From Paenibacillus sp. URB8-2 (GTDB lineage Bacteria > Bacillota > Bacilli > Paenibacillales > Paenibacillaceae): 64,000 nt of DNA. This document shows, in pieces, positions 44,290-45,651 of this stretch. The position numbers and the translations under genes were made by a program. How positions within the stretch are numbered: position 1 is the stretch's first letter; every line of letters begins with the position of its first letter. The DNA is taken from assembly GCF_013393385.1 (NCBI RefSeq), contig NZ_AP023239.1, positions 4,650,001 through 4,714,000 of the forward strand. Direction: 5' to 3'. Below the pieces are notes generated by a model. It had not been told where the DNA came from, searched no databases, and saw only the letters and a program-made list of their open reading frames with translations.

Positions 44290-44563
44290 CACATCACTCG
44301 AATTTTCAAGTTAACACAATGTAGAATCAAAATAGCCATACAGGGCTCGTATCGGGAAAGCACCCCAGTACGAGCCTTGCTTTGAGTTTTAAACTTCTTT
44401 TTATCTTTATGTAACTCAGAGTTTATTTAATTGACCCTTTTTCCCAGTCCCTTCTATGCCGTGAATTGCTGACAATTCCTTGAACGATTGAAGGAGATTG
44501 CTAATCAGGAATTGACCTTTAGTTAATTATTTTATATATTTGTAATAATATGGAGGAAATTAT
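44290..44563. other. AT-rich intergenic region with one hairpin
   Basis: It holds the terminator at 44340-44380 and presumably the promoter for the TPR/peptide unit. No HTH-coding sequence that could extend the TPR protein was found here. Confidence 0.45.
44340..44380 (+). terminator. terminator of the secreted-protein gene
   Basis: GGCTCGTA pairs with TACGAGCC, with inner GGG/CCC pairing. The T-rich tail (TTGCTTTG) is weak. Confidence 0.55.
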
Positions 44564-44590
44564 ATGCAGAACTACACCATTGACTCCTAA
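44564..44590 (+). CDS. possible 8-residue leader peptide (MQNYTIDS)
   Basis: An ATG follows a strong RBS (TGGAGGAAATTAT) and reads eight codons to a TAA, 22 nt before the TTG start of the TPR gene. It may be a translated leader that tunes the TPR gene, or chance. Confidence 0.3.
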   Translation: MQNYTIDS

Positions 44591-44612
44591 TGAGTAATGT
44601 GGAGGGATTAGC

Positions 44613-45491
44613 TTGGAAGGACAAGTTAGCTTCGAAGAAGTTTATTTATTGTCAGAAAACAATCATCCATTAGACAAGGCCTTTGAATTGTTCCGATCAT
44701 ACTACAAACTAAACGATTGGATCGAAGCTGACCGTGTTGCGAATCATATGCAGGCAATGGCTGAGAGTCTGTATAACAATCAGTTAGTACAGGCACACGT
44801 TTTTCCAGGGCTTCAATTACCGCTCCGACGGCCGCTTGTATTTTACATCGGATATAGCTATTTGGCAAAGTCTATCGTTTATCAAAAACAAGGACGTTAT
44901 GATGCAGCAAGAGAGTACATAGACAAGTATGCAAACTTAGATGGATTTGTTGGTCAGGACCAGGATGGCCGACAAGAAGCTCAGCGTTTTAAATATTTTG
45001 CAAAAGCGAATTCATATGCCATAGATTTGTTATCAGGTAAACTGGAAGTTTTGGATGAATATAATGATTTTATTAAAAGTAATGAAGAAGAACTACTGCC
45101 AGGACTCATTACTATATTGGAAGCAGCCAATTTAAATAAGTGGAATATCGACCCACTGCTTGATTCTTACATTCCTGAAGAACTTGAAACATTCGCCAGT
45201 TATGAAGACGCCGGAAACCGCGTGTATTATATCAAATTACTTCATCAACTTTCCATTTACAACCTGAATCAGCAGCGGTATCACGATACGATAAATTATA
45301 TTATTGATTATTTGTCAATTGCTGCTAAAATGAATGTAGATAGGGAATTTTTTACAACCGTTGCCATGTATGAGGCTGTACGAGCATTTACGAGTACGGA
45401 GCAGCAAAGTATGTACGAAAATATTTTAAAAGGAGTGCTTTCTGATGAAAAAAACATTAACAGCATTGTTTATAGCCATAACATTTCTTAG
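44613..45491 (+). CDS. TPR-type peptide-receptor-like protein without HTH domain
   Basis: This 292-aa all-helical protein has TPR-like pairs such as YIGYSYLAKSIVYQKQGRYDAAREYIDKYA and YYIKLLHQLSIYNLNQQRYHDTINYIIDYLSI. From memory it matches the C-terminal half of HTH-TPR regulators common in Brevibacillus/Paenibacillus, including the FKYFAKANSYAIDLLSGKLEVLDEY and LITILEAAN blocks. The N-terminal HTH of those proteins is absent. The start is TTG at 44613 with GGAGGG six bases upstream. It overlaps the 41-aa secreted peptide gene by 47 nt, as rap and phr genes do. Role as a peptide receptor is inference. Confidence 0.75.
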   Translation: MEGQVSFEEVYLLSENNHPLDKAFELFRSYYKLNDWIEADRVANHMQAMAESLYNNQLVQAHVFPGLQLPLRRPLVFYIGYSYLAKSIVYQKQGRYDAAREYIDKYANLDGFVGQDQDGRQEAQRFKYFAKANSYAIDLLSGKLEVLDEYNDFIKSNEEELLPGLITILEAANLNKWNIDPLLDSYIPEELETFASYEDAGNRVYYIKLLHQLSIYNLNQQRYHDTINYIIDYLSIAAKMNVDREFFTTVAMYEAVRAFTSTEQQSMYENILKGVLSDEKNINSIVYSHNIS

Positions 45492-45570
45492 TATCGTAAT
45501 AACTCTGTCCCCAACAACTACTTTGGCCGGCACCACAGTTACACCATTTAATCACGGGGTAAATGGTTAA
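45445..45570 (+). CDS. 41-aa secreted pro-peptide, candidate Phr-like signal
   Basis: This short ORF is below usual gene-calling size. MKKTLTALFIAITFLSIVIT is a signal peptide; an Ala-type cleavage after TTTLA would leave GTTVTPFNHGVNG (13 residues). It has a good RBS (AAAAGGAG, nine bases) inside the end of the TPR gene, reads in the +1 frame relative to it and ends just before a terminator. Size, export signal and overlap match Phr/PapR-type pro-peptides. No family match is claimed. Confidence 0.7.
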   Translation: MKKTLTALFIAITFLSIVITLSPTTTLAGTTVTPFNHGVNG

Positions 45571-45584
45571 ATAATGAAAATAGG

Positions 45585-45617
45585 AAACCGAAGGCTAAAT
45601 GGCCTCCGGTTTTTTTG
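45585..45617 (+). terminator. terminator of the TPR/peptide unit
   Basis: AACCGAAGGC pairs with GGCCTCCGGTT around TAAAT and is followed by seven T. It may also help end the converging GH32 transcript. Confidence 0.8.
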
Positions 45618-45651
45618 TTATATTTATCTATCCGGTCTATACGCTAACCGA

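Follow-up and report, generated by a model that had tools for sequence, protein, structure and literature searches.

The Rap receptors of Bacillus are TPR proteins without an HTH, each with its own secreted Phr peptide gene downstream, overlapping or adjacent, and the receptor AimR, which carries an HTH, acts on DNA. A further peptide-sensing system, AloR-AloP, is known from Paenibacillus. According to the main text of Voichek 2020 (PMC7425212), an HTH is found in all Alo receptors, and the length floor of 250 aa applied there would admit receptors without one. For alo13, the same text gives SHGRGG as the mature peptide, inferred and tested, and a Spo0E-family gene downstream (PMC7425212). In the accessible text of PMC12700828, the Rap family of Bacillus arose when the DNA-binding domain was lost, Rap and subfamily 17 being the RRNPPA groups that go back to an ancestral HTH loss; for clan C (AloR, subfamily 08 and AimR) that text reports no HTH loss. 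A description of an HTH-less AloR clade was not found in the open-licence literature. The window analysed here, a stretch of 64,000 nucleotides from the single-contig genome (5.58 Mb) of Paenibacillus sp. URB8-2, carries a predicted quorum-sensing pair of the AloR-AloP lineage in an HTH-less variant.

The receptor gene and the overlapping peptide ORF

Table 1. Features of the receptor-peptide locus, in window coordinates
Feature	Position	Strand	Basis
Putative promoter, TTGACC - 17 nt - TATATT	44512-44540	+	Consensus scan, three-copy alignment
Receptor RBS, GGAGGG	44601-44606	+	Sequence
HTH-less AloR-type TPR receptor, 292 aa, TTG start	44613-45491	+	ORF, homologues, AloR profile, AF2 model
Peptide RBS, AAAAGGAG, within the receptor gene	45428-45435	+	Sequence; conserved in four copies
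Overlap of the two genes, 47 nt, different frame, encoding receptor C-terminal residues	45445-45491	+	ORFs, AF2 model
AloP-type pro-peptide, 41 aa, ATG start, hydrophobic start MKKTLTALFIAITFLSIVITLSPTTTLA, tail GTTVTPFNHGVNG	45445-45570	+	ORF; register and HG tail as in relatives
Predicted mature hexapeptide, NHGVNG	45550-45567	+	Inferred from positional alignment with L144 and Voichek 2020
Terminator-like stem and T run	about 45585-45619	+	Sequence

The sequence-only reading had described a TPR protein of 292 aa overlapped by 47 nt, in another frame, by a 41-codon ORF, and this pair of ORFs is found as described; the peptide ORF's own RBS, its signal-peptide-like start (called by eye and with a hydropathy rule), its short tail and the terminator after it are likewise all present (Table 1). 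The peptide RBS AAAAGGAG ends 9 nt upstream of the peptide ATG. No tRNA was found in the window. Among Pfam families, the receptor matched TPR repeats only, all below threshold, and its matches up to E 5 included neither an HTH family nor RapH_N (PF18801), an N-terminal three-helix bundle. The AF2 model is all-helical with a mean pLDDT of 86.9; residues 1-5 and 279-292 fall below 50, the latter being the stretch that shares its DNA with the peptide gene.

Against a profile built from 14 HTH-bearing AloR proteins, the receptor aligned with an E-value of 7.2e-65 over profile positions 179-460 of 466; the sequence-only reading had likened its TPR part to the sensor half of HTH-TPR regulators. Judged by this alignment, the part missing relative to AloR is the HTH together with about 180 N-terminal residues; the absence of the HTH noted earlier is thus real and common to a whole clade, and the loss is larger than had been stated. 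A hidden upstream HTH was rejected: the gap from the upstream ORF to the TTG measures only 323 nt, with a stop five codons before the latter, and the AloR HTH profile had no match in or just upstream of the window locus. An alignment of the window copy with both P. zanthoxyli copies demonstrated that conservation begins at the putative promoter, at about its -35 box, and fades downstream at the peptide stop, so that promoter and peptide stop mark the edges of a cassette, though the surroundings differ between copies. By the consensus scan, 8 promoter-like sites occur in the window versus 5.5 expected, which is weak on its own. A leader ORF before the receptor (MQNYTIDS) was dropped, being absent from the P. 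zanthoxyli copies. The receptor leader (44550-44612) contains CTCC between two GGAGG stretches, and the RBS might pair with it.

The GC content of the receptor gene is 0.374 versus 0.498 for its 7-kb locus. All nine receptors measured lie below their own loci in GC, so that a low GC content characterizes the family and, taken alone, argues only weakly for transfer; the AT-richness noted in the sequence-only reading is confirmed, and its use as proof of transfer was dropped.

The peptide ends in FNHGVNG. Both P. zanthoxyli copies retain the receptor, the overlap, the RBS, the hydrophobic start and this tail, more than chance would give; the P. forsythiae copy, by contrast, has decayed. In the four copies (window, two P. 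zanthoxyli and P. forsythiae, picked by receptor similarity), five of the final seven codons differ with zero residue changes, and the spacer from signal to tail is variable in sequence among the same copies. The hexamer NHGVNG is inferred to be the positional equivalent of the tested AloP13 hexamer SHGRGG.

Relationship to AloR-AloP and distribution of the pair

At E ≤ 0.01, 38 protein relatives were obtained, including the window's own, of which 33 were aligned. Most are about 290 aa long, and those with a named source are all from Paenibacillus except one Bacillota metagenome protein. Many are annotated as 'DNA-binding protein', and Pfam matched no HTH family in the 33 aligned sequences. 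Two receptor lengths dominate among the matches listed for whole genomes, about 270-340 and about 450-510 aa. In the long AloRs, the N-terminal HTH block aligns in all of the 14 sequences compared, with Pfam matches to HTH_26 in four, HTH_3 in two and HTH_31 in one. One long locus, L144, agrees with alo13 as given in the main text of Voichek 2020 (PMC7425212): its peptide ends in SSHGRGG, and a Spo0E-family gene (PF09388) lies downstream.

For the evolutionary tree, 119 sequences past the coverage filters were reduced to 74 at 88% identity and, after removal of two rows cut by a locus end, to 72 (50 HTH-less and 22 with HTH). In this unrooted tree, a single branch separates the HTH-less from the HTH rows (support 100/99), and the HTH state changes once in each of 200 bootstrap trees; long branches, flagged by the tree program, occur on either side of the split. 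The HTH was presumably lost rather than gained, because AloR and subfamily 08 have a common HTH-9TPR architecture and the accessible text of PMC12700828 reads the case of Rap as a loss. L056 and L059, which branch off at the base of the HTH-less side, and the related row L089 retain part of the AloR middle, are of intermediate length and look like intermediates in the loss; none has an HTH-profile match, the L059 locus offering only 204 nt upstream. Seven receptor residues (Y78, Y106, N133, G142, Y150, E160 and Y216) are invariant across the HTH, peptide-bearing and XRE-linked groups, which is compatible with a retained peptide groove and is not proof of it.

The peptide ORF was sought in fetched loci as an ORF with an RBS, a hydrophobic start, at least 24 residues and HG or HV near its end. 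The 119 distinct receptor rows scored comprised 92 short, 23 long and 4 fragments; five of the short rows were left out as not HTH-less, namely L104, L109, L112 and L126 (locus-end cut) and L070, a 393-aa row that carries a fused HTH. Among the remaining 87 HTH-less rows, the window included, 57 have an HG-tailed peptide ORF (54 with the peptide only and three with a stand-alone XRE gene as well), and these counts are not population frequencies, the loci having been selected by similarity to the window protein. The search of homologues for a downstream secreted ORF, which the sequence-only reading had proposed, thus turned out mostly favourable. Of the 30 rows without a detected peptide, 22 face a divergent stand-alone XRE gene and eight have neither. 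In three of these eight (L036, L041 and L069), an HTH match of weak E falls within ORFs 258-439 aa long and probably belongs to a neighbouring AloR. All three loci contain a stretch coding for FNHGVNG, in L036 as the end of a 23-aa ORF below the 24-residue limit.

A fixed detector with a stricter position rule found an HG-tailed ORF at 58/91 short and 18/20 long rows, the short ones dividing into 55/63 without and 3/28 with an XRE gene, counts that include rows later reclassified (locus-end cuts, L070 and three XRE rows). As a control, 284 other ORF ends from these loci were scanned: none had a secreted-type ORF with both an RBS and an HG tail, and three had one with an RBS when the tail was disregarded. 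In 58 of the 69 distinct peptides, which come from both architectures, the peptide starts -47, -44 or -50 nt relative to the receptor stop. HG stands near the end in 68 of the 69, HG or HV having itself been a detector criterion; a simulated probability of 1.5e-5 for the tails was set aside, since the selection pattern itself fixes the residues. Three loci (L088, L092 and L100) have two HG-type tails per pro-peptide, for example NNHGMN twice. The conserved architecture strongly supports the window peptide as genuine and the locus as a receptor and secreted-peptide pair, and a peptide-receptor pair of AloR lineage without HTH is very probably what the window contains.

The XRE-linked rows (for example L028, L093, L102 and L021) have the XRE gene upstream of the receptor on the opposite strand, with an open frame of 77-156 aa that matches PF01381 in one example. 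In the tree, 11 of them together with L015 form one clade (100/100) nested in the HTH-less side, and no peptide was detected in any row of that clade. This XRE-facing, apparently peptide-less subclade may, from its gene arrangement, represent a split receptor-regulator pair.

Within the genus, a relative with at least 75% identity occurs in 3/100 genomes among the matches listed: the window's own genome, one with two copies and one with a fragment. Within the family, 22/394 genomes match at E ≤ 1e-100 among the matches listed. One relative (62%) lies on a P. peoriae plasmid. Relatives on viral contigs comprise two HTH-less receptors with HG-tailed peptides (L162 and L163) and one with HTH (L164); in the phage collection one record matched, at 28% identity, and in PHROGs the window receptor matched an unnamed family only (E 0.0082). 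At the loci compared, no neighbour gene was seen to travel with the cassette as a candidate target.

Decayed forms also occur. The P. forsythiae copy (L004, 4254-4511) has lost most of the receptor through a large internal deletion, the remainder running on in frame into the peptide coding sequence, with the peptide start disrupted and out of frame. Another locus, L006, has a C-terminal receptor fragment and an intact peptide ORF and is possibly a signal-only locus. The window genome itself contains, at 4425810-4425950, an HTH-only AloR remnant with one stop, adjoining an ORF that by eye resembles a transposase helper.

Proposed mode of action and alternatives

The locus is best read as a self-contained cassette of AloR lineage whose receptor has lost its DNA-binding half, senses an exported and re-imported peptide and holds a regulator protein in the manner of Rap; the probability of this whole statement is put at roughly 0.6. 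The pro-peptide would be exported and cut to about NHGVNG, which would be taken back up through an oligopeptide permease and would then occupy the concave groove formed by the TPR part of the receptor. The genome encodes seven oligopeptide-binding proteins (PF00496). The receptor would grip a regulator protein as Rap does, and the peptide would release or alter that grip. Once an HTH-less pair of AloR lineage is granted, this Rap-like step, which is drawn by analogy, appears rather probable. For a receptor without HTH, the simplest assumption is that it targets a protein, and the contact surface would have to differ from that of Rap, whose effector bundle is missing here. Besides this missing bundle, points that weigh against the preferred reading are the lack of a neighbour gene travelling with the cassette, the 30 HTH-less rows in which the detector found no peptide, the decayed copies, and a structure comparison in which unrelated TPR proteins score as well as RRNPP receptors.

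The likeliest alternative to this reading is that the receptor binds a separate XRE protein as an anti-repressor, the peptide breaking or making the contact. The partner of Rap of plasmid pLS20 is reportedly an XRE-type repressor. That Rap provides a precedent for an HTH-less RRNPP anti-repressor in the accessible text of PMC7430634, and the related subclade with its adjoining XRE gene points the same way. No XRE gene, however, was found beside the window receptor (3.1 kb upstream covered), and this alternative is considered unlikely for the window pair.

The sequence-only reading had also offered a decoy, that is, an HTH-less receptor that damps signalling by full-length AloR, either by sequestering HG-type peptides or by pairing with it in dead heterodimers. 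The peptide-binding part is indeed retained, and four P. polymyxa-type genomes hold both kinds of receptor side by side, 14 of the 79 matches listed there having 290-316 aa (one interrupted) and most others about 450-560 aa. The window genome, however, has a single intact AloR-family protein, a second AloR-type receptor not being found at E ≤ 10 with two profiles; since no intact HTH-bearing AloR is present at that limit and only the HTH remnant with its stop remains, a decoy would have no evident sister AloR to act on in this genome and is unlikely. A pure sink, moreover, would have no use for a peptide gene, and this receptor comes with a conserved one of its own. The decoy is accordingly weakened to an improbable option. 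Least probable is a decaying, functionless leftover of AloR, which the decayed copies in P. forsythiae and L006 and the HTH-only remnant in the window genome would suit. Against it, receptors of the truncated form keep open frames in many genomes and make up a well-supported clade, and the window pair has retained both reading frames, the two RBSs and the tail, the tail varying only synonymously in four copies.

The preferred reading, a cassette acting on a protein, can be widened to the HTH-less side as a whole, which would then be an independent Rap-like branch that arose by one HTH loss, kept the HG peptide, later gave rise to an XRE-coupled subclade without peptide, and, as a switch targeting proteins, spread over the chromosomes, plasmids and phages of Paenibacillaceae; taken jointly, these points are judged slightly better than even. 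If true, this HTH loss would join those of Rap and subfamily 17 as a founding event within RRNPPA, the first of its kind in the AloR/AimR clan. An independent loss with the peptide kept would serve as a natural experiment in the conversion of a peptide-gated transcription factor into a protein-gating switch, and a genome with a single intact member offers a clean setting for finding the target.

Comparison with known systems

The likeness to rap-phr and plcR-papR claimed in the sequence-only reading holds insofar as the locus is a receptor-peptide pair; the closest relative is nevertheless AloR-AloP. Like Rap-Phr, the window pair joins an HTH-less TPR receptor to its own secreted peptide gene, but it belongs to another lineage and lacks the Rap N-terminal bundle RapH_N. 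In the window genome as a whole, nothing scored over the cut-off for RapH_N, the control exceeding it in 1/14 genomes. Structure alignments matched RapH from residue 144 on, i.e. in its TPR part, and in the comparison with Rap, NprR and AimR the RRNPP receptors were not ranked above unrelated TPR proteins. By sequence, kinship with Rap or PlcR was rejected, the sole PDB match (E 1.8) being unrelated and RapH_N absent, and the receptor was therefore classed with AloR.

With AloR-AloP, the pair shares the homologous TPR part, the partly overlapping downstream secreted peptide gene, the xHGxx tail (a family signature defined in this analysis, not by Voichek 2020) and the occurrence in Paenibacillus; with 41 aa and a hydrophobic N-terminus, the window peptide falls within the 32-50 aa taken here as the AloP range. 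It differs in the receptor, which lacks the HTH and is shorter by about 180 residues at its N-terminus, and in the absence of a spo0E-like gene from the downstream stretch. Among the peptide rows compared, spo0E lies within 200 nt at three HTH-bearing loci; in the short peptide-bearing rows, it occurs at one plasmid locus only (L124, where it is also annotated), and since that copy is 3.7 kb away on the other strand, an association of spo0E with HTH-less receptors was rejected. The HTH-less clade thus qualifies the printed statement that every Alo receptor contains an HTH.

Two further systems are comparable in the accessible text of PMC12700828. Subfamily 17, known from Anoxybacter fermentans, resembles the window receptor in its HTH loss but belongs to clan B and lies outside Paenibacillaceae. 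The arbitrium pair AimR-AimP belongs to the clan of AloR and likewise combines a TPR receptor with a peptide gene, but its peptides carry a DPG motif in place of HG.
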